From the IMG/VR virus record IMGVR_UViG_3300037493_003357, positions 1 to 26,023 of that record: a DNA stretch of 26,023 nucleotides. One strand, 5' to 3'. Below are positions 313-23,838 of this stretch, one piece after another. Made by a program: the position numbers and the translations under genes. The notes under the pieces are model-generated. The model searched no databases, was not told the origin of the DNA, and saw nothing but the letters and a program-made list of their open reading frames with translations. Origin of the DNA: a virus. How positions within the stretch are numbered: the first letter of the stretch is position 1; each line of letters begins with the position of its first letter.

Positions 313-1056
313 ATGGAAAATCAAACAAGAGACCACGGTCAAGACAATTTTACACTACCACACGATGTGGTACAATTACCATCACAAGGTATTTTTTATA
401 AAAACAAAAAGAAATCAATTAAAGTTGGTTATCTTACCGCATCAGATGAAAACATTTTGATGGGTGGGGCAGCTGATTTAACGATGACTTTATTAAGAGC
501 AAAAATTTACGAACCTGATGTTAAAGTTGAAGATTTAATTGAAGGTGATGTTGAAGCGATTCTAATTTTTTTAAGAAATACTGGATTTGGTCCTGAAATG
601 GTGTTAAATGTTACAGACCCTGTAACTAAAAAACCATTTAAAAGTACAATATTGTTAGACCAATTAAATATTATTAATGGTCAACAACCAAATGAAGATG
701 GTTCATTCACTATTTTATTACCAAAGTCACAATCGACAATTAAATTAAAACCATTAAGTTATGGTGAGATTATGGATATTAGTAAAATGGCTGAAACATA
801 TCCACAAGGAAGAGTTGTTCCAAGAATTACTTGGAGAATGCAAAAAGAAATTATTGAAGTTGACGGGTCAACTGACAAAGCTATGATTGCAAAATTTGTT
901 GAGTCAATGCCAATCTCTGACTCAAAATTCGTAAGAAACTTTATGAATGAAAATGAACCAAGATTGGATATGACCAAAACAATTGCAGCCCCGTCAGGAG
1001 AAAAACTAACAGTGAATGTTGGGTTTGGGGCTGACTTTTTTCGCCCTTTCTTCTGA
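313..1056 (+). CDS. 26: gp26-type baseplate hub / tail assembly protein
   Basis: The 247-aa product resembles the T4 gp26 family (baseplate hub subunit or assembly factor). The N-terminal part carries the family-like LPSQGIFY motif (about residues 22-29) followed by an LTASDENIL segment. The middle has the EGDVEAILIFLRNTGFG stretch (about 77-93) and the C-terminus ends in GFGADFFRPFF. Cysteine pairs seen in some relatives are absent. It sits between tail tube and tape measure, the place where tailed phages usually encode tail assembly chaperones. The last 41 bases overlap an ORF in the +1 frame, and a run of six T (1036-1041) lies in the overlap, so a frameshifted longer product is possible. 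The start is the first ATG after the terminator. Family assignment is by recognition, not search. Confidence 0.7.
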   Translation: MENQTRDHGQDNFTLPHDVVQLPSQGIFYKNKKKSIKVGYLTASDENILMGGAADLTMTLLRAKIYEPDVKVEDLIEGDVEAILIFLRNTGFGPEMVLNVTDPVTKKPFKSTILLDQLNIINGQQPNEDGSFTILLPKSQSTIKLKPLSYGEIMDISKMAETYPQGRVVPRITWRMQKEIIEVDGSTDKAMIAKFVESMPISDSKFVRNFMNENEPRLDMTKTIAAPSGEKLTVNVGFGADFFRPFF

Positions 1057-1195
1057 TTATAGGAAAGTACAGATAGATGAATTTTACTATCTGACAACAT
1101 TAATGAAAATCTCTTATCAAGATTTTGAAAGAATGCCGTTGTTTGTAAGAAAATATTTATTGGATAAATGGATTGAAGATAACAAGAAGGACTAA
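1016..1195 (+). CDS. Overlapping +1-frame ORF, gp51-like or frameshift extension
   Basis: A 59-codon ORF runs from ATG 1016 to TAA 1193-1195 in the +1 frame relative to the gp26-type gene, overlapping its last 41 bases. The product contains ALSSDYRKVQIDEFYYLTT, then MKISYQDFERMPLFVRKYLL, then DKWIEDNKKD. This is a compact helical protein with a MPxxxRxxLLDKWIE-like pattern that recalls small gp51/tail-chaperone C-terminal domains of T4-like phages. The protein-like sequence continues upstream of the internal ATG at 1103, so translation must start in the overlap (ATG 1016) or arrive by ribosomal slippage at the T run, giving a fusion of about 293 aa. It ends directly in a terminator stem and precedes the tape-measure gene. 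That it is coding is likely; the gp51 identity is inference. Confidence 0.65.
   Translation: MLGLGLTFFALSSDYRKVQIDEFYYLTTLMKISYQDFERMPLFVRKYLLDKWIEDNKKD
1036..1041 (+). other. Candidate slippery site (six T) for +1/-2 frameshift
   Basis: Zero-frame codons here are GAC TTT TTT CGC. Moving forward one base, or back two, after the Phe codons enters the frame of the downstream ORF (TTC GCC CTT TCT). The zero frame stops 15 bases later at TGA 1054-1056. The position between tail tube and tape measure matches that of known frameshifting tail chaperone genes (lambda G/GT; Mu uses -2). Function is inferred only. Confidence 0.35.
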
Positions 1196-1239: not shown

Positions 1240-3114
1240 ATGGCAGATAATCTTAATGATTCGTTCGACGAACTTAAAAAAACTTTTGAAAGTTTAGGTT
1301 CTCCTATAGATAAAATGTTACAGTCAATTGAGGACATGGCTAATGCTGGTGATGCTCTTAATAACTCATTTATTGCAGGTAGAACAAGACTTGATGAAAT
1401 GAATGACGCTGCCGCTAGGTCAGCTGCAGGTATTATTCGTTTAGGTGGAGATATTGGAGATGTTTCCAAAACCATATCAGGAATTGCGGAAGGGTCAAGA
1501 AGACAATTTCTTGCAACTGAAGACCAAGTCAGTAAACTTTACGCGGCCACCGAAATTTTGGGAGGAACTAGTGCTGATTTAGTCGAAACATTTGGTAATG
1601 TTGGTATTGAAGTATCTCAAATTGGTACAAACTTAGAAAGTTCTATTGAATATATTCAAAGTGTTGGATTAAACGCCAAGGAAGTTATGGGAGATGTGAC
1701 TGGTAGCATGTCACAAATGAACCGATTCCAATTTGAGGGAGGTGTTCAAGGTTTGGCCAAGATGGCAGCACAAGCGTCAATGTTAAGATTTGACATGCAA
1801 CAAACCTTTACTTTGGCTGATAGAGTTTTAGACCCCGAAGGAGCTATAGACACCGCTGCGGCTTTCCAAAGATTGGGTGTTTCAATTGGTGGTTTGGCTG
1901 ACCCAATGGCATTAATGAATCAATCGATTAATGACCCATCTGGTTTACAAGACAGTTTATCAAAAGTTGCAAAACAATATACCGAGTTTGATGAAAAAAC
2001 AAAAACGTTTAAAATAAATCCTCAAGGTGTTTTAACTCTTAGAGAGTTGGAAAAACAAACAGGTGTTAGTGCTGCCGAAATGAGTAAAATGGGTCTTGCG
2101 GCTGCTGACTTAGATAGAAGACTTTCCGCTATTAGTCCCTCTCTTGATTTTGAAGATGAGGAAGATAAGAAACTTATTGCCAATATGGCCACAATGGATA
2201 AAGGTGGTGAATATATTGTACAACTTAAAAACGATAAGACTGGTGAAGTTGATAAAATCAAACTAAGTGAAATAACAAATGAACAACTTATTGCGTTAAG
2301 AGAACAACAAGAAAACGCACCAAAAACTTTAGAAGACATTCAAAAAAGCCAATTAAATGTTTTGGAAAATATTCAAAGAGCTGTTGAGGGTAATGTTGCA
2401 AAAGGTACATTTGGTATTGCTGGTTCTTCGGTTGTTAGAGGTAATTTAACAGGTGCAGAAAGAATTAGTAGAGCGGTTGCAGGTTCTGTTGATAAGGCAG
2501 TACCTGAAAGTGCTGCGATAACTGAAAAAGTTAATAGCTCAATTGAAAAAATGAGTGCGTTGTTTTTAGCAAAAGATTCAAATAAAATAAGTGCTGACGA
2601 TTTTGCAAAAAAATTGGCGTCACTTGAGGAAACTATTTTAAAAGATGCAAATAGTTTAGGCGAAAAGGGGATGAAAGCCTTTAAAGATATTATTTCAGAA
2701 TCAAGTAAAAAGGTTACAGGAAGTAGTGGTATTGAAAAAGAATTTAGAAATTTAAGTCAGGAAATTTTAAGTGCAACGGGTGGTGGTAAAGCTGTAACCG
2801 CAACAGAACACCTTAAAAAGAAAACTGAAGAAGAAAAATCGTTATCATATGCCGATATTATAGGTAGAAGAAATGAAAACCCCAAGACATCAACTACTGC
2901 TGGCACATCTACAGGTGGTGGAACATCAACAAATAAAGTTGATGTTGGAGGTACTATAACATTTAAATTTGATTTACCTGCAGGTACAACACTAAACCAA
3001 CAACAATTAAACGCAGCATTTAATAGTGAAGAGTTTAGACAATATATTGCCAACGTTGCAAAACAAAATTCTTCAGAAAATAAAGGTTCTGGTGTTCCAT
3101 ACTATGGACGATAA
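1240..3114 (+). CDS. Tape-measure-like tail protein
   Basis: The 624-aa protein is largely helical, rich in Ala, Ser, Lys and Glu. It has no strong transmembrane run. N-terminal stretches such as LNDSFDELKKTFESLG and repeated SIEDMANAGDALNNS-like heptads suggest coiled coil. A Thr/Ser/Gly-rich linker (about residues 551-567) separates it from a short C-terminal beta/helix tail (GTITFKFDLPAGTTLNQQQL). The length is close to T4 gp29 (590 aa), and the location after the tube and chaperone-type genes and before baseplate genes is the classic tape-measure position. Such proteins fill the tail tube, set tail length and are ejected before DNA. The call rests on position and composition; a baseplate hub protein is the alternative. 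The start is the ATG after the repeated promoter-like motif. Confidence 0.6.
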   Translation: MADNLNDSFDELKKTFESLGSPIDKMLQSIEDMANAGDALNNSFIAGRTRLDEMNDAAARSAAGIIRLGGDIGDVSKTISGIAEGSRRQFLATEDQVSKLYAATEILGGTSADLVETFGNVGIEVSQIGTNLESSIEYIQSVGLNAKEVMGDVTGSMSQMNRFQFEGGVQGLAKMAAQASMLRFDMQQTFTLADRVLDPEGAIDTAAAFQRLGVSIGGLADPMALMNQSINDPSGLQDSLSKVAKQYTEFDEKTKTFKINPQGVLTLRELEKQTGVSAAEMSKMGLAAADLDRRLSAISPSLDFEDEEDKKLIANMATMDKGGEYIVQLKNDKTGEVDKIKLSEITNEQLIALREQQENAPKTLEDIQKSQLNVLENIQRAVEGNVAKGTFGIAGSSVVRGNLTGAERISRAVAGSVDKAVPESAAITEKVNSSIEKMSALFLAKDSNKISADDFAKKLASLEETILKDANSLGEKGMKAFKDIISESSKKVTGSSGIEKEFRNLSQEILSATGGGKAVTATEHLKKKTEEEKSLSYADIIGRRNENPKTSTTAGTSTGGGTSTNKVDVGGTITFKFDLPAGTTLNQQQLNAAFNSEEFRQYIANVAKQNSSENKGSGVPYYGR

Positions 3115-3172: not shown

Positions 3173-6100
3173 ATGGGTAGTCCGTTAGATTATATAAGCA
3201 CCGAAGGTTTTAGAAAAAAACTTATGACAAGGAATTTAGTACCTTATGCTAAATCACCTAGTCCTGCCAGTCCACCAATAACTTTTGAGGTAATACAAAG
3301 AGATTTAACACCTGTTGATAGTCCTGATTTTTTAATTGATACCCCATATATTGCCAATTCACAATTTTATCCACTTAACAAATGGGGAAATCAAGGGGGT
3401 TATTACCAAGCACCCGACCTCACAGGTAATTTAAATACAATTTCAAATCAAGGTGAATATGGACCTGGTCAACAGGATGCTCACATTGTGGACACAGGAT
3501 TTGCAGCAACTCAAAAATGGAGACCATTAAATGCTTACTCAAGTAATAATAACTTTGATGCTGGTGAAGCCGTTTCTAGTTTAGAAATTGTTACACCTGA
3601 CCAAGATAGAACACCAAATGGTCAACCTTACTTTACATTTGTACCTTCATCGTATAGACCTGTTTCAATCTTATTAAATCCCGACCCACAGGGTAGTGAT
3701 GGTTTATTAAGTGATGACTCGTTTATTGCTCGATTGGGTGCAAAAACATTAAAGAAAGAATTCCAAGACCGTATTGGTAGAGAGTTATTAAGACAAACTC
3801 TTGGACGTGCCAACATATTAAATGTTAATAGTAGTACAAACCTTGTTAATATTTTAACAGGAAATGTTCCGTTAATTGAACCAAACTATAACATTACGGT
3901 ACCGTCAAATCCATTGGGTGCGGCAGCCGACTTTGCTCTTAGATTAGGGGGAAGTACTTTACCATTTTCACCAATACCTGGTTCTTATTTTGACCAAAGT
4001 ATTAACCCACCACAACCAACAACCATTCAACAATCGTTGTTAGCAAATCCTATTGCCGCTGCGGGTAATTTTATTAGTAATTTATTAGGTGCTAATAAAA
4101 CAGGTACACAAATATTCTACGACAATACAGGACAAGGTCAAAAATCTATTTTATTTAAAAACCTTAACTACAATAAGTTTAAACCAAACTACGATAGAAC
4201 TTTATTAGATAGATTGGGTGGTGCTATTGTTGGAACTAACACAAACAACTCTAACTTTTATGTTGGTAGCACATCTTCAGACCCATCAAGAGTATTTTCA
4301 CCATCAGGGGCATTACCAAATGATGCGTTTGGTAATGAACAACAAGACCCCGTTTATGGACCATCTGAGTTGGCTCAGTTATATGAAGGTCCAAGTAAGG
4401 AGGTTAGACTTGGCGCTAACGGTCCAACATATAGTAATGGTGGTGGTATTGAAGGTGGATTCACATGGGTGTCTCCAAAGTACAAAGGTAACGCTGGTAA
4501 AAAAGTAGGACCAGGTGGTGCAATATATGACCAAGACCAAGACTTTAAACCATCATCTTATAATTCAACAGAGTCCACAGAAAGAACATTTAAAGAAGGT
4601 TCCATTCTTGATAAGACACAAAGAATTATTGATAGCCAACCACAAGGTGGTAAAAGATTACAACACGTTGGTAATGCAATGGACCAAGTCAGTAAAGTAT
4701 TCAATGATGGATACAAAGAAATGACAAAGGGTTCAAGAGTATTAACTTATGTTGGGTCAATTGGACAAGAAGTTGGTACTGAGTATTGTCGTGTATTTGC
4801 CAAAGATATTCCTTATTTACAATACAATGACCTTCAAAAGACTGACGGTATTACGACTGAAGGTAGAAGATTTGCTTGGTCTGTTTTAGATAAGACATAT
4901 AACCTTAACATTGCGCCAAACAAACAAGAGGGTGGACAAGATTCATCAAACATTATTGGTACGATGAATAATGCTTATGCTAAAAAATATATGTTCTCAT
5001 TAGAGAACTTGGCATGGGCAACATCAAACTCACCAGGTTTTGCGGTTTCTGATTTGGCGGTATGTGAGAGAGGACCTAATGGTGGTAGAGTTATGTGGTT
5101 CCCTCCTTATAACTTAACATTTAACGAATCAGTTCAAGCAAATTGGAATCCAAATGATTTTATTGGAAGACCTGAACCAATCTATACTTACAAAAATACA
5201 AGTAGAACGGGTAGTTTGACATGGGATATTGTTGTTGACCATCCATCAATATTAAATGTTATTGTTAACAAGGTGTTGGCAAATGAAACAAACAAAACAA
5301 GAGTTGATAGTATATTGGATTCATTCTTTGCTGGATGTAGAAAGTATGACTTATATGAATTAGCCAAAAAATACTATACAATAAATCCAAACGATTTATT
5401 CCAAATTCAACAAGCGATTACTTCTAAAGAAATTACAAGAGAACAGATGCAATATGCTGTTAGTACAATAACCGTGGACGCTCAAGTTGCAGGAGAAAAC
5501 GGTGCGGGTAATGGAAGTACGGGTGCTAACACTTCAAGCACACCAGCTCCTGGTAGTCCTGAGTATTTTGCAAAATATAATCAAATTGGTTTTTATTTTG
5601 GTAATGATTTTCCCAAACCAAAGACATCACCAAATTATACCGCAGAATATGAAAGATATACGAGCGCAACAAATAAGGCATTATATGCGAGTAAATCAAA
5701 TGGTGCTCAGTTAACTCAGGCTTTTGATACCATGGTTACACCAAACTATGTTATTGCGCAACAAATGGCTATTGATATTGCAGAACAAATAAAAAATAGT
5801 GAAAGTGGTGGTGTAACACTTATTGTAGATTCAAGCTGTTCTGCACCACAAACTGAAGCATATAACTTATCATTATCAACCAGAAGAATTGATTCTGTAA
5901 TCAAATTTTTTGCTGAAAACGCTGCGACAAAAGATTACGTAAAACAAAAAAAATTAATAGTAAAAAGTGGTAGAGGTCTTGGTGAAACAGCTCGTTCTGC
6001 ACCGTTAGTTTCAAAAACAAATCAACCACCGTATGAGTTATCGTCAAACCCTTCGGTAAATTGTACAGATACAAATGGTACTGTTGTTGGAGGTGACACG

Positions 6101-8215
6101 ATGGGTTCTTATGAAGTATTCACAACAAATGCTATGGCTTGTAGAAGAGCATATATTTCAAAGATTGAATCAAATCTAAAGGTTCCACAACCCGCACCAC
6201 CTAACCCTATAAAACAAACACAAACTGTTGTGACAGGTAATGTTGTAAAAACAACAGAAAAGATAAATACAACTGAAACAGTTGTGGTACCTAGAGATAA
6301 TATTAGTAAAAGAGTTTTAAGAGCGTTATTGTCTGAGTGTGATTATTTTGAAGTCATAAAACAAGAAACTCCAATGGTGTTTGATAATCTTAAAGATAAA
6401 TTAAAATTCTTTGAACCAGCATTCCACTCAATGACACCTGAAGGACTTAATACAAGATTGACGTTTTTACAACAATGTATGAGACCTGGTGATACAATAC
6501 CTGTGGTTAAATCTATTGGAGGTAGGGATGTGTTGGAATATAACAATGCCACAAATACTGCGTTTGGTGCACCACCAGTATTAATTTTAAGAGTTGGTGA
6601 TTTTTTTAATACTAAAATTATTCCAACAAGTTTAGGTATTACTTATGAAGGATTGGATATTAACCCTGAGGGTATTGGGGTTCAACCTATGATTGCAAAA
6701 GTGACAATGGCGTTTAATTTTGTTGGTGGTAGTGGATTAAAAGAATCTGTCGACAAATTACAAAATGCGTTAACGTTTAATTACTATGCAAACACTGAAA
6801 TTTATGATGATAGAGCTGACCCAACAGATTCAAGTTATAAAGTAATTGATAAAGATTTCTTACAGTTTGCGGCAATAAGCAATGTTTCGCCCCCAACTAT
6901 AAATGATGCTCAACCCAATAATGGTTTAAGTAATGAATCAACTATTGGAACTATATTAACTAATACTAGTAGTTTAAGTGCTCAAACAGGTACCCTTAGT
7001 TATCAAACCTTTATGGATAAGTTTGTTGGGGAAACACAAAATTATTTCACAAATGTTGTGAATAAAAATAAAGAAACTGTAAACCAATATAATAACGCAT
7101 TACGACAACAATGGATGTTAGAAAGAAATTATCAACAAGGTAAATTCTTATTGACCGAAAATAGTGAGACAATTTTATTTGGTAAACCTTATAATCTTGA
7201 AAAAAGAATTGATAATGTTTTTGAAGATTTAATATCCGATATTAAAAAGGATGATGATGAATTTATTAAATTTATTAAAGAAGATACATTTAATTTTACA
7301 AATAAAACGATTAGACAAGTTAAAGAAAATTTCACTAACTTTGTTAAAAATAAGAAAGGTACGTATCAAAATGCCGTAACGACTATTACTCAAAGTATGG
7401 TTAATACTCAACAAACTTATGTTGCTTACATTGCAAGGACAAATACCATTACATATTATGTACCATCATTTTCTGGAACAGGTACGGATGGTTCACAAGA
7501 TAAAGTTGGTAATGTTAAATCATTTATCACAATACCAACAACAAGTATTGACACAAGTTCAAAAAATGCGTCAAACACATTAGAAGAATTAAGTAATGAT
7601 ATTGTAACAATTAAAAGTGCTATAACAGCATTTAATGCGGTTACAATGTCCGCATATACTTTTAGTTATAATACTAACACATATAGTGGTATTTTGGTAT
7701 TTGCGCCTGATTATAAATTACCTGAAGGTCAAAAAGTTTTTGTTCCATTCAATAAATCAACATTTTTTGAGATTCCTTCATTTAGAAGGGAGTACATGTT
7801 ACTTTCTGACGATGTTGTTGATTCAAAAAAATATGAAACCTTTAAAAATGCAATGATTGGTAATATAATTAATAATGTGGGATTACTTGGTACTGCGGAA
7901 AAAGGACCTACATTAACTGATGCGTTTGATGAGTATTGGGATAGACTGGCAAAAGGTTTATTTGAAAGTGAAAATACTATTACTAAAGAATTTATTAATA
8001 GTATTGAAAAAGAAAAATTACAAGACTTCTTGAAGTTTACACCATTCCCAACCAAGAAAAGGTTATTTACCTACACTACTGAAAATGCGGGAACAGACTC
8101 TCAAAAAACATTGATTAAAGGATTAGGTGCAACTGAAAACTATAATACAAATAATAAAACGTGGGATGATGAAATATCTGCTGACGTATACGTATCAAAA
8201 GTAAAATTTAACTAA
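3173..8215 (+). CDS. Large baseplate protein, gp48/gp54-like parts with OmpA-like domain
   Basis: The 1680-aa product is a structural protein of the tail/baseplate. Residues about 640-690 contain PYNLTFNESVQANW and FIGRPEPIYTYKNTSRTGSL. This strand pattern is like that in T4 gp48/gp54, the tail-tube cap proteins. Around 1160-1210 it has LDINPEGIGVQPMIAKVTMA followed by FNFVGGSG and a LQNALTFNYYANTEIYDDRA stretch, also seen in such proteins. Between these, residues about 855-1000 resemble an OmpA-type peptidoglycan-binding domain: NLSLSTRRIDSVIKFF at 898-913, then a GRGLGE segment and ACRRAYISKIE near 985. The first 500 residues are Gly/Asn/Pro-rich and not recognised, and 1400-1680 is partly helical. 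The stop overlaps the gp53 start (TAATG), so the two are translationally coupled. Baseplate membership is well supported by context; the exact T4 counterpart is inference. Confidence 0.65.
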   Translation: MGSPLDYISTEGFRKKLMTRNLVPYAKSPSPASPPITFEVIQRDLTPVDSPDFLIDTPYIANSQFYPLNKWGNQGGYYQAPDLTGNLNTISNQGEYGPGQQDAHIVDTGFAATQKWRPLNAYSSNNNFDAGEAVSSLEIVTPDQDRTPNGQPYFTFVPSSYRPVSILLNPDPQGSDGLLSDDSFIARLGAKTLKKEFQDRIGRELLRQTLGRANILNVNSSTNLVNILTGNVPLIEPNYNITVPSNPLGAAADFALRLGGSTLPFSPIPGSYFDQSINPPQPTTIQQSLLANPIAAAGNFISNLLGANKTGTQIFYDNTGQGQKSILFKNLNYNKFKPNYDRTLLDRLGGAIVGTNTNNSNFYVGSTSSDPSRVFSPSGALPNDAFGNEQQDPVYGPSELAQLYEGPSKEVRLGANGPTYSNGGGIEGGFTWVSPKYKGNAGKKVGPGGAIYDQDQDFKPSSYNSTESTERTFKEGSILDKTQRIIDSQPQGGKRLQHVGNAMDQVSKVFNDGYKEMTKGSRVLTYVGSIGQEVGTEYCRVFAKDIPYLQYNDLQKTDGITTEGRRFAWSVLDKTYNLNIAPNKQEGGQDSSNIIGTMNNAYAKKYMFSLENLAWATSNSPGFAVSDLAVCERGPNGGRVMWFPPYNLTFNESVQANWNPNDFIGRPEPIYTYKNTSRTGSLTWDIVVDHPSILNVIVNKVLANETNKTRVDSILDSFFAGCRKYDLYELAKKYYTINPNDLFQIQQAITSKEITREQMQYAVSTITVDAQVAGENGAGNGSTGANTSSTPAPGSPEYFAKYNQIGFYFGNDFPKPKTSPNYTAEYERYTSATNKALYASKSNGAQLTQAFDTMVTPNYVIAQQMAIDIAEQIKNSESGGVTLIVDSSCSAPQTEAYNLSLSTRRIDSVIKFFAENAATKDYVKQKKLIVKSGRGLGETARSAPLVSKTNQPPYELSSNPSVNCTDTNGTVVGGDTMGSYEVFTTNAMACRRAYISKIESNLKVPQPAPPNPIKQTQTVVTGNVVKTTEKINTTETVVVPRDNISKRVLRALLSECDYFEVIKQETPMVFDNLKDKLKFFEPAFHSMTPEGLNTRLTFLQQCMRPGDTIPVVKSIGGRDVLEYNNATNTAFGAPPVLILRVGDFFNTKIIPTSLGITYEGLDINPEGIGVQPMIAKVTMAFNFVGGSGLKESVDKLQNALTFNYYANTEIYDDRADPTDSSYKVIDKDFLQFAAISNVSPPTINDAQPNNGLSNESTIGTILTNTSSLSAQTGTLSYQTFMDKFVGETQNYFTNVVNKNKETVNQYNNALRQQWMLERNYQQGKFLLTENSETILFGKPYNLEKRIDNVFEDLISDIKKDDDEFIKFIKEDTFNFTNKTIRQVKENFTNFVKNKKGTYQNAVTTITQSMVNTQQTYVAYIARTNTITYYVPSFSGTGTDGSQDKVGNVKSFITIPTTSIDTSSKNASNTLEELSNDIVTIKSAITAFNAVTMSAYTFSYNTNTYSGILVFAPDYKLPEGQKVFVPFNKSTFFEIPSFRREYMLLSDDVVDSKKYETFKNAMIGNIINNVGLLGTAEKGPTLTDAFDEYWDRLAKGLFESENTITKEFINSIEKEKLQDFLKFTPFPTKKRLFTYTTENAGTDSQKTLIKGLGATENYNTNNKTWDDEISADVYVSKVKFN

Positions 8216-8538
8216 TGGCATATCAATATTACAATAGATACAGTGAATTTCTTATTAATGGGGAACAAACTGTTGTGCCGTTTGTGCAAATACCACAAAA
8301 AACAACTGACAAATCTTACATATATAAAACGGCAAGAAGTAGACTGGATGTTGTTTCTCAAGAATATTATAACTCACCATATTTTAGTTGGTTAATTTTA
8401 CAAGCAAACCCACAATTTGGTGGGTTAGAAAACAACATATTTGATGGAGCGGTATTGATTATTCCATATCCACTACTACCTTCATTACAGGATTATAAAG
8501 CATCCTTAGAAAACTATTTTTATTATTATGGCAGGTAA
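8215..8538 (+). CDS. 53: Baseplate wedge protein gp53-type, LysM-like
   Basis: The 107-aa protein matches the gp53 type of small baseplate wedge subunit. It begins with YYNRYSEFLINGEQTVVPFV. The middle has a LysM-like pattern (SRLDVVSQEYYNSPYFSWLI, then LQANPQF) and the end a GAVLIIPYP segment typical of LysM folds. In T4, gp53 joins adjacent wedges into the baseplate ring. The ATG overlaps the previous stop by one base, and its 3' end overlaps the next gene by 11 bases, showing tight coupling with the large baseplate and hub genes. The identification is from motif recognition, and length agrees with the compact gp53 forms found in T4-like phages of Bacteroidetes. Confidence 0.75.
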   Translation: MAYQYYNRYSEFLINGEQTVVPFVQIPQKTTDKSYIYKTARSRLDVVSQEYYNSPYFSWLILQANPQFGGLENNIFDGAVLIIPYPLLPSLQDYKASLENYFYYYGR

Positions 8539-11500
8539 CAGACCGGGAGACAATAGTGGAAATATATTAGTAGAATTTGACTATAATAACATTATTGTTG
8601 TTGACCCAAACAAAACTATTGATGCGTTTGGAAATATTCGTGAAAGATTGGTTGACCATGAAAATATGGTTATGTTTGCTAACCTTGAAGCGGAACTTTT
8701 GCCAAGAACCAAATTAGCCGTTGGGGGTAGTCCTGAAGATAGAATTTCTATTTTATCTATTGCTAAAATTAATTTTTTAAGGCCAACTGAAGGTACTTCA
8801 CTTACAACAGGGTATTATGATGAATTAACGGGTAAAGGCACAAGAAACGGTTTAGGTGATAATCAATTAAACATAGAGGATATTGAACCTATAAACGGTA
8901 ATACCGCATATCAAAAAGTTACGGTTAATAATCCTGGAAATAAATCTACCGATAATGGATTATTAGGGATTACATCGATTAGAGTTACTACTAATACGTC
9001 ATTTATACCAACTGTAAGTATGGAGTTGGAAGATATTCAAGGACGAGCATTATTTCAATTAGGTGATAATTCACCATACGCTGCGTTTTTTAATTTACCA
9101 TATCCACCATTTTATTTAACACTTAAAGGTTATTACGGTCAGGCAATAAAATATCAGTTAAATTTAAAAACATTTAATGCCAGATTTAATTCTTTTAGTG
9201 GAAACTATTCAATTACTTTAGAATTTGTTGGATACAAATTTAATATCTTAAATGAGATTTCAATGGGTCATTTATTGGCCGCTCCTCACATGTATAGTAC
9301 AAGATTTGATATTTCTAAATCTGCAACATCATCTGAAGCACCAAATAAAAATATTGAGGCTGGTACAAAACAAACAGGTGCAATATCAAAAGAATCAACA
9401 AATAGTTCAAATAATATTGTAACTCAAATTGTTAGTGAAAGGGGTTATCAAAAAGTTGTTGAAGTTTATAGTGAATATAAGGCCAAAGGATTGATTGACC
9501 CAGATTTCCCTGAATTGACATTTGCTCAGTTAATTAATAAGTTAGAAACTTTTGAAACAACAATAATAAATTCATACACTAAAGTTGATATACAACCATT
9601 AACTAATATTAGGGCATATAAAGAAACGTTAACCAATTATTATAATGGGATTTATGGTAACCAAGATTCTTGGTTTAATACATACTTAAATTCAAGACCA
9701 ATTGTTTTAAATGATGGAACTTTAGTTTATGCGTTTAAAAAAGAAATATTAGAAGACCAAACTAAGAGACAAAAAGCATTGCAAGCCTTAAGTGCGGATA
9801 CAATTGCGTATAATGAATTATTGGCGTCAAATCCAACGTTAGGTACAAGTGGGGTATCAAAAATTGAAAATCCAATTAATTATGATACGTATTTTATTAA
9901 TGTGTCTCGTGACCAAATTAATGACACAAAAACAGTTATTGAACAATCAAATAACTATACGCCAACCGAAACAGATATAATAAAAGTCAAAGAGTATTTA
10001 GATAAAAAAATATTTGGATTAAGTAAAGAATCAATAGTGGGTGATAATACTAACCAATCTGCTAATTTTATTGTAAAACCATTACTTGTATTTAAGATTG
10101 AATCAATAACCGCTTGGGAATCCAAAAACAGCAATCCAAGATTTGAGAATTTAATATATCAAGTGGAAGCTGAAGTTAATAGAAAATTAACTCAATACGA
10201 AACAGCTTTGACCGCTGATTTTGCTAGAAAAATTGAAGATACCACAATAGGTCTTGGATTTAAACCATCAATAAGAAATATATCTGCGGTTGTTATGGCG
10301 TCCGCAGAAGCGTTTATTCGATTATTAGATGAGGTACACACAAACGCTTGGAATGTTAAATATGACCCTGTAAGACAACTTGCAATTTTAGATAATACAT
10401 CATCGGCACCTGGTGTCGATACACAGGGTAATGTTAAAATTTCGGCAAGGGCTGAAAGTGAAAATCAAGGATTGTCTACAAGTAAAGAACCTGTATACCC
10501 ATGGCCACAATATTTTGTTGAAACTCCCGAAGATAAAAAAGGACGTTTTCAATTAAAATATATTGCAGACCCTTCTGAAGTTAATATAACAAAAGGCTAT
10601 CTATATGATAAATGGCCTGAGGTTGAATTTGTTGAAGAGTATATGAGAGGACTAACTCAAAAGTTTAATCCGCCCATAGCCCAAGTACCGACAGATAGTC
10701 AAGCAACCACAAATATTATAAACATTAATGCGATTGAATATCCTTCAAATGGTGTTGCATATCTTAATAAAGAAGAAATTAAGTTTTTTTATGAAATATG
10801 GGAAAGACAATTTTTAACTTCAAACTATTCTGGATATATTAGAGCAAATGGTAATCAATTAAATCAATTAACTGATTTGGTTCTTAGTTCTGAGACAAAT
10901 AATATTATAAGTAGTTTAGGTGTTAGTTCACCATTTTTAACCTTAAAGTTAAAAAATTATAACATAACGGCTCAAAACTATGTTCAATTTTTAGAAAACA
11001 TATCTAACCAAGGGACTGGTAGGTCATACCAAGAATTTATTAGAGATTTTTATGTTACGCCATATATTAAAAATTTAACAGAAAATTCGTTTAATATTCT
11101 TACAACAAATCAACTAGGTAAAGAACCACAAAATAACGCCAAATCTGAGGCACTATTACAATTAGTTAAAGCTTCTAATAATGCACCATTAATTATTGAT
11201 ACTTATCCGTTTACAAACCCAAATTGGGTAAGTGGTAATATGAGTCTTAGTAATCAGGCTCAAGGGGACTCAGTATATAATACAAACCAAACTTTAACGG
11301 TTTTTAAACCAAGAAATGTAATTTCAAACTTTACAAGTGTTTATGATTACACAACTAATAGACCCGTTACTAATTTTTCGTATTTAAATGTTACTAATCC
11401 AATTACAGAAATTAGTGCAACAAATTTAACAACATTCTTAGACACAAGAAAAAATCCTGATAAATTTATACCAACCGAAGGATATGTTAACCATTTTAGA

Positions 11501-14500
11501 CCTGTAACCAACTTAACCACGGAAACAACCACAACGATGTTGAACACACCATATATGGTTAATGCAATTCAAAATGGTGTTTATAATTGGAGAAAAAAAG
11601 ATAAGTATCCTTATGTGCAAGCCGCATATCTCTTTATAAATTCATTACCGTTAGCGTCTTTAAGAGAAAGATATAAGACATATGGTTTACCAAACGATTT
11701 AGATTATATTGCATCTTGTTTTAAAAAGTTTGGAGCAATTCACAAAATGCCGTACGCTTGGGTACTAAAGATGGGTTCTTTATGGTACCGATATAAAACA
11801 TATAAAACAACTGGAGTTGATTTTCTTGAAACTGCTTGGAGTAACTTTGATTATAAAGTTAATTTTGACCCAGTAACAAGTTCTGACACCAAAACATATA
11901 CATTTCAATTTGATGGTGTTAAGAATATAAAATTACAAAATGTCTCAATTGTCACTAACTCAAAAATACAAACTGGATTTTATCCAAAAGTTATTAATGA
12001 TTTTAACGTTTTTTATAATGGATATGATTTGTATACAAAATATACTGACACAGAAATACAAACAAGTATTAATGGAGGTATGAAAGTATATAATTTTACA
12101 GATTCTAACATTTACCCAAATGGTTTTACTGGCACATCAATTCAAACATGGTCGGTAATTTTACCTGATAATTTAATTGATTTTGTTGCATCATCGGGAA
12201 CTTGTTCTCCAAATCAAAATACAACAGGAGTTAATTATTTTATTGTTCCTTCATTTGGTTCTTCAATAAATCAAGTTAACGTTGAATGTTTACAAAATAA
12301 CAATCAAATTGCACCAATATTAAATAACACATCTGTTTATAATGGGTCAGTTAGATTATTATGGTCTGCACCTAATTATGGTTATTTTGATAATAATCAA
12401 ATAGTTAAACCACAACCAGATTCTTACGTCAATCAAATTTTAACGGGTAATACAAAACAAGCACCCTTTAAATTATTATTGGAGAATAACTATTCAAATA
12501 TTGAAGAAGTATTTTCAGTTTTTGATAAAAGTATTTTAGATAAATTTGAGCAAGAGTTTTTAAATTTTTCTAAACCAGTATCTGATATAGATTTAGGACC
12601 ACAAGTTATTGTTCCTGTTAATCAATCTCCTGTAGATAATAGTGCGACGTTTAAAAACTTCCAATATTTGTTTAGAAGTTTAATGTCTGTTAATGCCAAA
12701 GCGGGGTTAACAAATTCGGAGTATTTTAATACTCTTGGAGATAAACAATTGGTTACATTTTCAAATACAATTAAATCGTTCATGGAATATGATGTAGTTT
12801 TAAAATATGGTAACCCTGCAAATTATAAAAGAAGAGTGGTTGATTCATTCCTTGCTTCAAATGGAGGAAACAATCCCGTTGTCGACCCAATTCAATTTGG
12901 TACATATATTAATAATACGTTACCATCTGTTAATGGAGCAATTACTTTAGCTCAATCAAAGGCTGCATATTCTCAAGCTTGGTTAGCGTTAGAAACTGAA
13001 GTAGGATTTTCAACAATTACCAATTTAAAATATACTAACCAAGGTTCATATATTACGGATTTCTTTATTGATAATAATATTGAATTCTCCGTTAATAATG
13101 TTGTGTTATGTTCGCAACTTATTAAACAATATGCCACTCAAAAGTTAAATGTACCAACAATTAATAGTACACAATTTAAAACAAACATTAACACTTATCT
13201 AGATGGAACTGATGCTTTACAAACACTTTTCTTAAATCAAGTATTAACAAGAGTAAGAGCCGATTTACCCAATCAACAAGAATTACCTGAAAGAAAAATA
13301 CAAAGTGTTATTGATGGACAACAAAGTAAAGTTGAAAATTATGAAGTGTTTAAAGCGTTAAATGATAAATGGATTTCTGGTGGTGATTTTACAAACAAAA
13401 CATTATTTGAGGACTTCTTATTTTTAGATAGAGCGTCAAGAAATATTGGAGATGTTCTTCTTATTGATATATTTGATTTAAAAAATACTTTAAAATCTAG
13501 TTCTATTAATATGGAAATGAGTGTATTTACATTTCTTAGTGGAATATTAATTAAAAACAAATTTAATGTAATGCCTTTACCTGCGTATGTTAACTTTTAT
13601 AACGTACAAGATGCTGATGGAACCACAATATCACAAAGTGCTGAAGGGTCTTTACAGTTTGCTGATAATATGTGGGGAACGTTTTTGGATGTTGACTATA
13701 GAAAATCAGGACCAAAAATGGTTTGTTTCTATACTGGTTTACCATCAACTTATTTAGATTTGCCAAAGGGAAATTCTCGATATAGAAATGATTCTTTTGA
13801 TTTAAGACGAGCATCGGAAAATCCATTAATTGAAAATCAAGTTGGAAAAAAAGATTGGGCATTATCTAATAAGTGTGTTGGGTTTAATGTTGATATTGGA
13901 ACAAGAAACCAGAATGTATTTTACTCGTTTAGTGTTTCTATGGATAGTGGTAGGGCAACTTCAGAAACAATTCAAACACAATTAAACATGGTTGACCAAT
14001 ATAATGGTAAAAATGTTGCAACTCAAAACGTTGGTTTATATAATTTATACAAACAAAGAAGTTATAAATGTGATATAGTTTGTTTAGGAAATGCGTTATT
14101 ACAACCTACTATGTATTTTAATCTTAGACACGTTCCAATGTTTAATGGTCCTTATTTAATTACTGAAGTTAATCACACAATAACCGCTGGTGAATTCCAA
14201 ACTAATTTTTCTGGTATTAGACAAGGAATTTATGATTTGCCGTCAATTGATAATTTTTTACAAAGTGTCAATCAAAATCTTTTAACTCAGATTGAAACTA
14301 TAATTCAGACTAATAAAGATAATATTACTGATAAACCAATCACCAATATTAATAAAACAGCACAATTAACTCAATTAGGTGATAATGTTGCTGCGGCAGC
14401 AAATACATGTACTAATAACTTAACTACAAATTATAGTACTTGGGGTGATTTTGTTGAATCCGTTACAATAAGTCTAACACCTACACAACTTGCCGATGCT

Positions 14501-15838
14501 ATTAAAGCTAAAACAACTAGTACTGAAATACAAACTAGTATCTACTTGTTATGTTATGTTCTAACATTTAATAAAGATAGTTTTTATGGTTATAATAACA
14601 ATTTTGCGTCGGTTGCATTAAATACTTATTGGGGAGAAAGTACAAAATATTTTATACAAAAACAATCATCATGTGTTAAACTTCCAAACTCATTGGGAGC
14701 TCCTACATCACAACCAATTGCCAACTTCCAAAGTCTTGATAAATTCTTAGATTTTATGATTGCAAGATTAACACCAAATATTCGAAGAATATATTATGGT
14801 GATAATGGTAACGCTCCGTTAGGTCTTTGGAAATATTATGTATGTTATTGGAAACCACCAACCGCTGAAAATCAGAACATACCTGAATCTTATTTTGATG
14901 CGAATCAAAATGAATTTAATACGTTAAAAAGTACTTTTGATAAAGCATATAAATCGGCAGCATCAGTGGGATTAGATTTTGAATCTGCAAGAAAGGCGGC
15001 AAATAAACAAGCCGAACAAATTGCTAATGGAGTTAAAGGAGCTACCAATAATCTTAATACAACAAAACTTCCACCTCCAACATGTCTTCCACCGACAATT
15101 GTATCGTTCTCACCATTAACAGGTGTTACAAACACAATATTGAATATAACAGGAACTCATTTAGAAAGTATTACTGCGGTGACGATAAATAACGTGAAAA
15201 CTACAACAGGAATAACTATTAATAGTAGTGTTAATATTGTTGTGTTGGTTCCGTTTAGTAATACATCAGTACCACAAAACAATACAATTGTTGTTAGTGG
15301 ACCATATGGCGCTACTGCTAGTTCGACAACGTTTACTTATAATCCATTACAGACATCTGCGGCACCACCAACAGTTGCGCCAAACGTATTACCAAATAGT
15401 AATACACAACCACAACAAACAGGACCTGTAACTATGACAGGTATTACCAAAACAAGTACTGTCAATACTCCTGGTTATACTAAGATTGGAATTAACCCAT
15501 TAATATTAGTTAATTGGGAAATATCAAGTTACCCTCTATCACCATACTTAAGTTATGACGTGGTTAAAGAGACTGTTTCATCAAACAATACCTTAGTTAG
15601 AAAGATTATTAATCAAGGAGTTGTTAGTTTAGGTGATAAATATACTAATGCTGCATTCTCTGAGTTTTATATTGAAGACGCTGATGTTATTTATGAAATT
15701 GATAATGATGGAGTAACAATACCAACAGACTGTGAAATAAATTACAAAATTAAAATATTGGCAAATACAATACTTCCAACTACTCCCCCAACTCAAACAG
15801 TCACTCAATGGTTCTCTAATCTAATCATCATACCATAA
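8528..15838 (+). CDS. Giant baseplate hub protein with gp27/gpD-like and IPT/TIG domains
   Basis: The 2436-aa product occupies over a quarter of the window. Residues about 145-250 form a beta-rich region (ITSIRVTTNTSFIPTVSMEL; YPPFYLTLKGYYGQ; YSITLEFVGYKFNIL) seen in hub-like proteins of related phages. Near 1850-1905 it has LLQPTMYFNLRHVPMFNGPY, LITEVNHTI and FQTNFSGIRQG, a pattern typical of the gp27/gpD tail hub fold. Residues about 1965-2110 contain GYNNNF, TYWGES and NFQSLDKFLDFMI, laid out like a glucosaminidase/lysozyme domain, but the usual catalytic Glu is not evident. Residues about 2187-2275 are an IPT/TIG domain (PPTIVSFSPLTG to TTFTYNP). The last 140 residues are an unrecognised beta-rich tail. 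T4 splits the hub between gp27 (391 aa) and gp5 (575 aa), so this looks like a fused and expanded version. Domain calls are by eye. Confidence 0.6.
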   Translation: MAGNRPGDNSGNILVEFDYNNIIVVDPNKTIDAFGNIRERLVDHENMVMFANLEAELLPRTKLAVGGSPEDRISILSIAKINFLRPTEGTSLTTGYYDELTGKGTRNGLGDNQLNIEDIEPINGNTAYQKVTVNNPGNKSTDNGLLGITSIRVTTNTSFIPTVSMELEDIQGRALFQLGDNSPYAAFFNLPYPPFYLTLKGYYGQAIKYQLNLKTFNARFNSFSGNYSITLEFVGYKFNILNEISMGHLLAAPHMYSTRFDISKSATSSEAPNKNIEAGTKQTGAISKESTNSSNNIVTQIVSERGYQKVVEVYSEYKAKGLIDPDFPELTFAQLINKLETFETTIINSYTKVDIQPLTNIRAYKETLTNYYNGIYGNQDSWFNTYLNSRPIVLNDGTLVYAFKKEILEDQTKRQKALQALSADTIAYNELLASNPTLGTSGVSKIENPINYDTYFINVSRDQINDTKTVIEQSNNYTPTETDIIKVKEYLDKKIFGLSKESIVGDNTNQSANFIVKPLLVFKIESITAWESKNSNPRFENLIYQVEAEVNRKLTQYETALTADFARKIEDTTIGLGFKPSIRNISAVVMASAEAFIRLLDEVHTNAWNVKYDPVRQLAILDNTSSAPGVDTQGNVKISARAESENQGLSTSKEPVYPWPQYFVETPEDKKGRFQLKYIADPSEVNITKGYLYDKWPEVEFVEEYMRGLTQKFNPPIAQVPTDSQATTNIININAIEYPSNGVAYLNKEEIKFFYEIWERQFLTSNYSGYIRANGNQLNQLTDLVLSSETNNIISSLGVSSPFLTLKLKNYNITAQNYVQFLENISNQGTGRSYQEFIRDFYVTPYIKNLTENSFNILTTNQLGKEPQNNAKSEALLQLVKASNNAPLIIDTYPFTNPNWVSGNMSLSNQAQGDSVYNTNQTLTVFKPRNVISNFTSVYDYTTNRPVTNFSYLNVTNPITEISATNLTTFLDTRKNPDKFIPTEGYVNHFRPVTNLTTETTTTMLNTPYMVNAIQNGVYNWRKKDKYPYVQAAYLFINSLPLASLRERYKTYGLPNDLDYIASCFKKFGAIHKMPYAWVLKMGSLWYRYKTYKTTGVDFLETAWSNFDYKVNFDPVTSSDTKTYTFQFDGVKNIKLQNVSIVTNSKIQTGFYPKVINDFNVFYNGYDLYTKYTDTEIQTSINGGMKVYNFTDSNIYPNGFTGTSIQTWSVILPDNLIDFVASSGTCSPNQNTTGVNYFIVPSFGSSINQVNVECLQNNNQIAPILNNTSVYNGSVRLLWSAPNYGYFDNNQIVKPQPDSYVNQILTGNTKQAPFKLLLENNYSNIEEVFSVFDKSILDKFEQEFLNFSKPVSDIDLGPQVIVPVNQSPVDNSATFKNFQYLFRSLMSVNAKAGLTNSEYFNTLGDKQLVTFSNTIKSFMEYDVVLKYGNPANYKRRVVDSFLASNGGNNPVVDPIQFGTYINNTLPSVNGAITLAQSKAAYSQAWLALETEVGFSTITNLKYTNQGSYITDFFIDNNIEFSVNNVVLCSQLIKQYATQKLNVPTINSTQFKTNINTYLDGTDALQTLFLNQVLTRVRADLPNQQELPERKIQSVIDGQQSKVENYEVFKALNDKWISGGDFTNKTLFEDFLFLDRASRNIGDVLLIDIFDLKNTLKSSSINMEMSVFTFLSGILIKNKFNVMPLPAYVNFYNVQDADGTTISQSAEGSLQFADNMWGTFLDVDYRKSGPKMVCFYTGLPSTYLDLPKGNSRYRNDSFDLRRASENPLIENQVGKKDWALSNKCVGFNVDIGTRNQNVFYSFSVSMDSGRATSETIQTQLNMVDQYNGKNVATQNVGLYNLYKQRSYKCDIVCLGNALLQPTMYFNLRHVPMFNGPYLITEVNHTITAGEFQTNFSGIRQGIYDLPSIDNFLQSVNQNLLTQIETIIQTNKDNITDKPITNINKTAQLTQLGDNVAAAANTCTNNLTTNYSTWGDFVESVTISLTPTQLADAIKAKTTSTEIQTSIYLLCYVLTFNKDSFYGYNNNFASVALNTYWGESTKYFIQKQSSCVKLPNSLGAPTSQPIANFQSLDKFLDFMIARLTPNIRRIYYGDNGNAPLGLWKYYVCYWKPPTAENQNIPESYFDANQNEFNTLKSTFDKAYKSAASVGLDFESARKAANKQAEQIANGVKGATNNLNTTKLPPPTCLPPTIVSFSPLTGVTNTILNITGTHLESITAVTINNVKTTTGITINSSVNIVVLVPFSNTSVPQNNTIVVSGPYGATASSTTFTYNPLQTSAAPPTVAPNVLPNSNTQPQQTGPVTMTGITKTSTVNTPGYTKIGINPLILVNWEISSYPLSPYLSYDVVKETVSSNNTLVRKIINQGVVSLGDKYTNAAFSEFYIEDADVIYEIDNDGVTIPTDCEINYKIKILANTILPTTPPTQTVTQWFSNLIIIP

Positions 15839-21978: not shown

Positions 21979-23838
21979 ATGGACGCATCACAAAAAATAT
22001 TGTCAGACTTAACCGTTTACATGAAGTACGCTAAATTCGTACCTGAAATAAACAGACGAGAAACGTGGGAGGAATTGGTAACCCGTAATATGAACATGCA
22101 TATTAAAAAATACCCATCTCTAAAAAATGAGATTAAAGAAGTATACAAAATGGTATATGATAAAAAGGTATTGCCTTCAATGAGGTCAATGCAATTTGGT
22201 GGTAAACCAATTGAGATTTCTCCAAACAGAATCTACAACTGCGCTTACTTACCTATTGACCACTTGGATGCATTTGCCGAGTCAATGTTCCTATTATTAG
22301 GTGGTACAGGTGTTGGGTATTCAGTTCAAAAACATCATGTTGAAAAATTACCTGAGATTAGAAAACCAAAATCAAATAGGTCAAGACGATTCTTAATCGG
22401 AGACTCTATTGAGGGATGGGCAGACGCAATTAAAGTATTGTTCAAATCTTATTTTGGAGAACAGTTATCAACACCTGAATTTGATTTTTCTGACATCAGA
22501 CCAAAAGGAGCTCAACTTGTGACATCAGGTGGTAAAGCACCAGGTCCTCAACCTTTGAAAGATTGTATACATAAATTAAAAGGTATGTTGGACTCAAAAG
22601 AAGACGGTGAAAAATTAACACCAATTGAAGTTCATGATATGGTTTGTCATATTGCGGACGCTGTGTTGGCTGGTGGTATCCGTAGAGCGGCGCTTATATC
22701 TTTATTTAGTGCTGACGACAACGAAATGATTTCTTGTAAATCAGGTTCTTGGTGGGAAAAAAATCCACAAAGAGGTAGAGCGAACAACTCAGCGGCACTT
22801 GTTAGACACAAGATTACAAAAGAATTCTTTATGGATTTATGGAAACGTGTTGAAGCGTCAGGAGCAGGTGAACCTGGTATCTATTTTACAAACGATAAAG
22901 ATTGGGGAACAAACCCATGTTGCGAAATTGCATTGAGACCAAACCAATTCTGTAACTTATGTGAGGTAAATGTTTCTGACATTGAATCACAAGAAGACTT
23001 AAATGCTCGTGTTAAAGCAGCGGCGTTCATCGGAACACTTCAAGCGGGTTACACTGACTTCCATTACTTGAGAGACATTTGGAGAAGAACAACTGAGAAA
23101 GATGCGTTGATTGGTGTATCTATGACAGGTATTGGTTCAGGTGTAGTTTTAGGATATAATATGAAAGAAGCTGCGAAAGCGGTTAAAGAAGAAAATACAA
23201 GAGTTGCTGAATTGATTGGTATTAACAAATCGGCTCGTATGACAACTGTAAAACCTGCGGGAACAACTTCATTGACGTTGGGAACATCATCAGGTATTCA
23301 CGCTTGGCACAACGACTACTACATCCGTAGAGTACGTGTTGGTAAGAATGAGGCAATCTACAATTACTTGGTGACAAATCACCCTGAATTAGTTGAAGAT
23401 GAATTCTTCCGTCCACATGACACAGCGGTTATTTCGGTTCCACAAAAAGCACCTGAAGGAGCAATTTTGAGAACTGAAAGTCCTTTCCAATTGTTAGAAC
23501 GTGTTAAGAAAATTACACAAGAGTGGGTTAGACCTGGTCACAGAACTGGTTCAAACAGTCACAACGTATCTGCAACTATCAGTTTAAAGGCTGAAGATTG
23601 GGAATTGGCGGGAGATTGGATGTGGGAAAACAGAGATTTCTATAATGGATTATCTGTATTACCTTATGATGGTGGTAGTTATATTCAAGCACCATTTGAA
23701 GATTGTACTGAAGAAGAATTTGAAAGATTATTTGCAAAACTTCACTCAATTGATTTAAGTAAAGTTATTGAGTTACAAGATAACACTGATTTGAGCGGCG
23801 AGTTAGCTTGTGCTGGTGGAGCTTGTGAGATTAAATAA
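21979..23838 (+). CDS. nrdJ: Monomeric class II (B12-dependent) ribonucleotide reductase
   Basis: The 619-aa enzyme reduces ribonucleotides to deoxyribonucleotides with adenosylcobalamin. Key residues match the Lactobacillus leichmannii monomeric enzyme (739 aa) in order and spacing. C88 (RIYNCAYLPI) and C325 form the active disulfide pair. C314 is the thiyl radical cysteine in NPCCEIAL, with E316 two residues later. The C-terminal CAGGAC pair (C611, C616) has the five-residue spacing of the shuttle cysteines. FLLLGGTGVGYSVQ (about 105-118) is typical of this group. It is about 120 residues shorter than the lactobacillus enzyme, likely trimmed in regulatory or surface parts. It needs no separate small subunit, and none is nearby. 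The gene sits 24 bases after the helicase and supplies precursors for replication. Confidence 0.9.
   Translation: MDASQKILSDLTVYMKYAKFVPEINRRETWEELVTRNMNMHIKKYPSLKNEIKEVYKMVYDKKVLPSMRSMQFGGKPIEISPNRIYNCAYLPIDHLDAFAESMFLLLGGTGVGYSVQKHHVEKLPEIRKPKSNRSRRFLIGDSIEGWADAIKVLFKSYFGEQLSTPEFDFSDIRPKGAQLVTSGGKAPGPQPLKDCIHKLKGMLDSKEDGEKLTPIEVHDMVCHIADAVLAGGIRRAALISLFSADDNEMISCKSGSWWEKNPQRGRANNSAALVRHKITKEFFMDLWKRVEASGAGEPGIYFTNDKDWGTNPCCEIALRPNQFCNLCEVNVSDIESQEDLNARVKAAAFIGTLQAGYTDFHYLRDIWRRTTEKDALIGVSMTGIGSGVVLGYNMKEAAKAVKEENTRVAELIGINKSARMTTVKPAGTTSLTLGTSSGIHAWHNDYYIRRVRVGKNEAIYNYLVTNHPELVEDEFFRPHDTAVISVPQKAPEGAILRTESPFQLLERVKKITQEWVRPGHRTGSNSHNVSATISLKAEDWELAGDWMWENRDFYNGLSVLPYDGGSYIQAPFEDCTEEEFERLFAKLHSIDLSKVIELQDNTDLSGELACAGGACEIK

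Follow-up and report, generated by a model that had tools for sequence, protein, structure and literature searches.

A probable programmed +1 frameshift in the T4-type tail chaperone gene of an IMG/VR virus and its relatives

Introduction

Recoding by a forward shift of one base is known from prfB, the gene for release factor 2, in which ribosomes shift +1 at CUU_UGA, and from Listeria PSA, in which a +1 frameshift takes place at CCC_UGA. Frameshifted tail chaperones have been described as conserved across long-tailed phages 'except T4', the G/GT pair of lambda being made by a -1 frameshift at GGGAAAG (PMC5009743), and the tail chaperone of the haloarchaeal myovirus HSTV-2 likely uses a +1 shift (PMC5009743, PMC8211752). 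For T4, gp26 and gp51 have been described as short and long chaperones that are produced without frameshifting, a different mechanism being reported for T4-like phages (Vladimirov, Gautam and Davidson 2022, as cited in PMC10885494 and PMC12846349). Frameshifted tail chaperones and -1 signals in T4-like phages are already known, with polyT -1 signals mentioned for tail assembly chaperone (TAC) genes of this group (PMC12846349). No description of the +1 class presented here was found in the literature accessible to us, in which the 2022 study is represented by the papers citing it.

Here, we analyse a stretch of viral DNA of 26,023 nt, IMG/VR record IMGVR_UViG_3300037493_003357, referred to as the window. 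A sequence-only reading had noticed that a gp26-type gene ending at 1056 is overlapped by a +1-frame ORF reaching to 1195, and had left the choice between ribosomal slippage and a separate protein. We propose that the locus is very probably a single gene for a T4-type tail chaperone, from which a programmed +1 frameshift at UUU_CGC would yield a 247-aa and a 293-aa form (Table 1). The sequence comparisons behind this proposal show a conserved slip site, the frame relation, selection on the +1 frame from the slip onward, the absence of start codons in relatives and the homology with gp26/gp51.

Table 1 Features of the tail chaperone locus in the window
Feature	Position	Strand	Basis or remark
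gp26-type gene, short tail assembly chaperone form (TAC-N, 247 aa)	313..1056	+	PF12322, PHROG 150, AlphaFold2/BFVD
Predicted +1 fusion (TAC-NC, 293 aa)	313..1195	+	Frame 0 over 313-1041, one base skipped, +1 frame to 1192, stop 1193-1195
ATG in the +1 frame, possible internal start	1016..1018	+	36/36 in window clade
GGGG, 4 bases 5' of the T6 run; possible stimulator, not general	1028..1031	+	GGG codon (Gly239) 36/36 in window clade
Slip site TTT TTT CGC	1036..1044	+	P-site UUU 1039-1041 predicted to re-pair to UUC; A-site CGC 1042-1044 very rare
+1-frame C-terminal domain, helical, post-slip residues ALSSDYRK...	1043..1195	+	Alignment, pN/pS, AlphaFold2
Downstream gene in tape-measure position	1240..3114	+	Position only

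Results

The gp26-type ORF lies in frame 1 and closes with a TGA at 1054-1056, and the overlapping ORF lies in frame 2 (+1, equivalent to -2) and comprises 59 aa when counted from ATG 1016. The T6 run that had been seen in the overlap occupies exactly 1036-1041, in the frame-0 context GAC TTT TTT CGC CCT TTC TTC TGA. When TTTC (1039-1042), the sole in-frame TTTC of the gp26-type gene, is read as one step, translation continues without a stop to a fusion of 293 aa, in agreement with the size of about 293 aa anticipated for a slippage product. A gp19-like tail tube gene (PHROG 4542) precedes the gp26-type gene and ends at 240; the downstream gene gave no significant match in Pfam or PHROG, and its homologous position is taken by the annotated tape measure in phages immuto and LIS04. 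The placement between tail tube and tape measure, as is typical of G/GT-type genes and as the sequence-only reading had assumed, was thus recovered, on the 3' side by position. The chance that a +1 frame stays open for 46 codons beyond a stop is about 0.04 in this AT-rich window, in which 28 of 1515 out-of-frame runs reach that length; the length of the frame is by itself unremarkable, and its significance comes from conservation.

Elsewhere in the window, the tail/baseplate region harbours two very long ORFs, at 8528-15838 (2436 aa) and 3173-8215 (1680 aa), neither of which has a significant Pfam match, the second showing only a weak OmpA-like stretch. A B12-dependent-like ribonucleotide reductase is located at 21979-23838, between the DnaB-like helicase and gp25 genes. 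At the DNA level, the window returned no match among known phages, and a tblastn search against plasmids gave none either.

The window protein matches PF12322 (T4_baseplate) with 26.2 bits against a gathering cut-off of 24.5, with relatives scoring up to 86 bits, and PHROG 150 (baseplate hub) with an E value of 1.8e-11. The gp26-type protein and the C-domain were folded as two separate parts with AlphaFold2. The model of the former (pLDDT 86.5) found matches in BFVD to the SP-15 hub (E 3e-18), gp26 of Aeromonas phage 25 (E 1e-5) and a gp51-like protein of CP21 (E 9e-5). The model of the C-domain (pLDDT 79.8) consists of helices, and no structural hit to it had an E value under 0.8; in the PDB, no relative was found by sequence or by fold. 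In an alignment of 43 relatives, conservation of the C-domain starts at the slip Phe and follows the pattern F-x-L-x(3)-Y ... MP-x(3)-R, in which R is invariant and F, L, Y and P are nearly so. An assignment of the C-domain to DUF6760 (PF20546) of injection systems was rejected, with best scores of 14.5 and 12.4 bits against a gathering threshold of 27, and is kept as a lead only.

Close relatives were taken from IMG/VR as contigs with 77-97% identity, giving 36 different junctions that we call the window clade and that sit on a long branch (2.8) in the tree. All 36 have TTT TTT at the slip site; the next codon is CGC or CGT, in a single junction CTC, and CCT TTC TTC comes after it. Their +1 frame continues after the slip as [AVS]LSS[DEN]YRK...; the frame relation is kept in every one of them, and more distant junctions, over 140 in number, keep it too. 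Within the clade, the tail past the frame-0 stop has a pN/pS ratio of 0.155 when read in the +1 frame, whereas the two remaining frames give 1.76 and 0.98; together with the frames themselves, this bears out the overlapping coding arrangement first noticed in the sequence. From ATG 1016 up to the slip, the ratio is 3.6 in the +1 frame versus 0.18 in frame 0. Because the +1 frame is thus unconstrained before the slip and constrained after it, selection on this frame begins at the slip site, unlike what a start at Met 1016 would entail. The A-site codon CGC accounts for 2 of the 8483 window codons, at 1042 and 19206.

The tetranucleotide AATG, formed by ATG 1016 and an AAT codon, is invariant in 36/36 clade junctions, while five other invariant Asn columns alternate between AAT and AAC. 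Neither AATG nor GGGG varies within the clade, unlike other Asn and Gly codons, and an extra start, an RNA element or chance may lie behind this; in the wider set, GGGG upstream of the slip site is invariant in only some groups. No SD-like motif was seen before any of the 17 gene starts checked in the window, the upstream regions being A/T-rich, as in Bacteroidota.

Further junctions came from scans with other members, from GenBank phages and from contigs in bacterial and archaeal bins, and the +1 class was gathered by frame and then by slip tetramer, with no +1-frame junction discarded for want of the tetramer. The class holds 183 different junctions, which share ancestry and do not count as independent events, and all have TTT or CTT followed by T or C at the homologous FF position (TTTT in 100, TTTC in 54 and CTTT in 29). 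The comparison of homologues proposed along with the sequence-only reading therefore turned out in favour of conservation of the overlap, the slip codons and the frame relation, in the clade as well as in these 183 junctions. In distant relatives, FFWP in frame 0 (TTT TTT TGG CCT, TTT CTT TGG CCT or TTC TTT TGG CCT) stands against FFGL... in the +1 frame, and site variants include CTG TTT followed by CGC or CAG in Streptomyces phages, TTT TTT AGT in LIS04 and TTT CTA in LR756508. Phages of the Streptomyces type prefer TTC over TTT as Phe codon (61 to 46), yet the slip codon is TTT in 12/12. The frame-0 stop follows 3-7 codons past the slip in most relatives, with CGC or UGG as the A-site codon, and the frame relation also holds in 11/11 contigs from bacterial and archaeal bins. 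Sequencing error was ruled out, as the arrangement recurs in hundreds of independent contigs and in relatives that have no homopolymer.

Removal of sequences over 80% identical left 83 non-redundant relatives. Upstream of the slip, the +1 frame has no ATG, GTG or TTG in 31 of them and lacks every table-11 start codon in 28, and in 10 it opens merely 2 codons before the slip; a separate gene is impossible where there is no start codon before the slip, that is, in the 31. Outside the window clade, the counterpart of ATG 1016 is missing in 92 of 147 unique junctions. A search for a general stimulator found an SD-like tetramer among the 18 nt preceding the slip in just 28/83 non-redundant relatives and a mean z of -0.4 for downstream RNA folding. 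Of the GenBank records inspected that carry annotation, not one lists the joined gene; the second half is either missing or given as a separate hypothetical protein, with an internal ATG start in immuto.

Other modes of expression occur at the same place. Five giant myoviruses (PBECO4, GAP32, BF, Vibrio 2.275 and Atu_ph07) and two viral contigs have T_TTT_TTC (U_UUU_UUC) at the same FF codons and the second domain in the -1 frame, and the giant-phage -1 fusions match the +1 fusions over the full-length profile (E 6e-22). A clean separate downstream gene, named beforehand as the finding that would speak against slippage, was encountered in a few rare lineages only and in a different frame: in L178 and L184, which are nested inside the +1 group, the C-domain is an ATG-started gene after the gp26-type stop, an apparent loss of frameshifting judging from the sequences, and L085 has another separate arrangement of the second domain. 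In a quick tree, in which the deep branches are long, few changes of expression mode are needed.

The T4 proteins gp26 and gp51 are homologous, their family profiles matching with E 2e-21. The profile of the fusion aligns colinearly with the gp51 family profile up to the gp51 C-terminus, with modest support (E 5e-5, probability 68), and the C-domain alone gave no significant match to single gp51. These data agree with the short/long chaperone view of gp26/gp51 as it is relayed by the papers citing the 2022 study. T4 gene 26 is located on the - strand and gene 51 on the + strand, so a frameshift from 26 to 51 is impossible. Consequently, the suggested link between this locus and the gp26/gp51 pair stands as far as homology is concerned but not for a shared mode of expression, gp51 being an in-frame long form encoded on the opposite strand. 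The comparison suggests that the two-gene arrangement of T4 may be derived, recoding being otherwise the rule in this family. In the Klebsiella phages L390 and L394, the gp51- and gp26-type genes follow the tail tube gene as neighbours on a single strand, in contrast to T4.

Discussion

According to our proposal, most ribosomes would terminate at 1056 and release the short form, and a minority would pause at the rare CGC codon in the A site, where the P-site tRNA-Phe could move one base forward from UUU to UUC. The shifted ribosomes would then make the long form with its helical C-terminal domain. By analogy with lambda G/GT, both forms may bind the tape measure protein, with the C-domain bringing in tail tube subunits and the frequency of the shift setting the ratio of short to long form.

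The choice between slippage and a separate gene thus falls strongly on the side of slippage, with +1 as its direction. That ATG 1016 might instead start an overlapping gene for a 59-aa protein, with no fusion being made, is very unlikely. The ATG and its invariant AAT codon are found throughout the window clade, and the three lineages L085, L178 and L184 do possess a separate ATG-started gene, but in the clade the residues between ATG and slip vary freely in the +1 frame (G/V/D/A, L/S, Q/L/S/W/R, T/N/S/I), and the lack of start codons in 31/83 relatives (28/83 if every table-11 start is allowed) disfavours such a protein further. Moreover, the AGGAG before ATG 1016 is 15 nt away in a window where no gene has an SD motif, and a separate protein would leave the conservation of TTT TTT unexplained. 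A combination, in which the window clade makes the +1 fusion and also a free C-domain from ATG 1016, is unlikely as well, if less so: it would accommodate an ATG that is conserved alongside a conserved slip site, but a free protein of this kind would begin with unconstrained residues, and most relatives are without the ATG.

Backward slippage by two bases along the U-run, the -2 shift known from Mu, would enter the identical reading frame and give a fusion of 294 aa, and T6 or T7 permits re-pairing after -2. We regard it as extremely unlikely, because the homologous sites TTC TTT TGG, TTT CTA TGG and CTG TTT CGC allow tRNA-Phe to re-pair after a +1 shift only. Slippage of RNA polymerase could likewise supply mRNAs in both frames from the T6 run of the window and the T7 run of many relatives; this is barely credible, and as a general mechanism it is excluded, since many relatives have no run beyond TTT (TTT CTT TGG, CTG TTT CGC) and keep the frame relation unchanged. 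The +1 frameshift at UUU_CGC accordingly remains our preferred reading.

Taken more broadly, the comparisons point to a very large and mostly unannotated +1 class, defined by UUU or CUU plus a pyrimidine and a slow A-site codon (UGG or CGC), with no stop codon and no general SD or structure stimulator. It probably drives the T4-type tail chaperones of phages of Bacteroidota, cyanobacteria, Streptomyces, Streptococcus and Bacillus, other lineages having switched at the same codon pair to -1 frameshifting, a separate gene or, in T4, gene duplication. The change of direction between +1 and -1 at a fixed codon pair offers a natural comparison of how the ribosome chooses on a near-identical U-run. 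The motif would also be a general +1 signal that current predictors handle poorly, and its recognition would correct many phage annotations that lack the long form or let its second half begin at a false start.

With lambda G/GT, the window locus shares the position between tube and tape measure, two forms with a common N-terminal part and a low-level frameshift, predicted in the case of the window, close to the end of the first ORF; it would differ in shifting +1 at UUU_C instead of -1 at GGGAAAG. The likeness to prfB lies in CUU or UUU slipping onto a codon that begins with U, which in relatives with TTT CTT TGG resembles CUU_U. The A-site stop codon of prfB is absent from the +1 class, and where prfB has an SD-like stimulator 3 nt upstream, SD-like motifs occur only in the minority of relatives counted above. 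A +1 shift likewise serves tail or structural genes of Listeria PSA and, probably, of HSTV-2, but the genes and the slip codons are others. The giant myoviruses have a homologous gene, a shift at the same FF codons and a similar C-terminal domain, combined with the opposite direction and the slippery sequence U_UUU_UUC. T4 gp26/gp51, finally, belong to the same PF12322 family, with structural matches and a short form next to a long form carrying a C-terminal domain; T4, however, has two separate genes on opposite strands, where the window would have one gene and a +1 shift.
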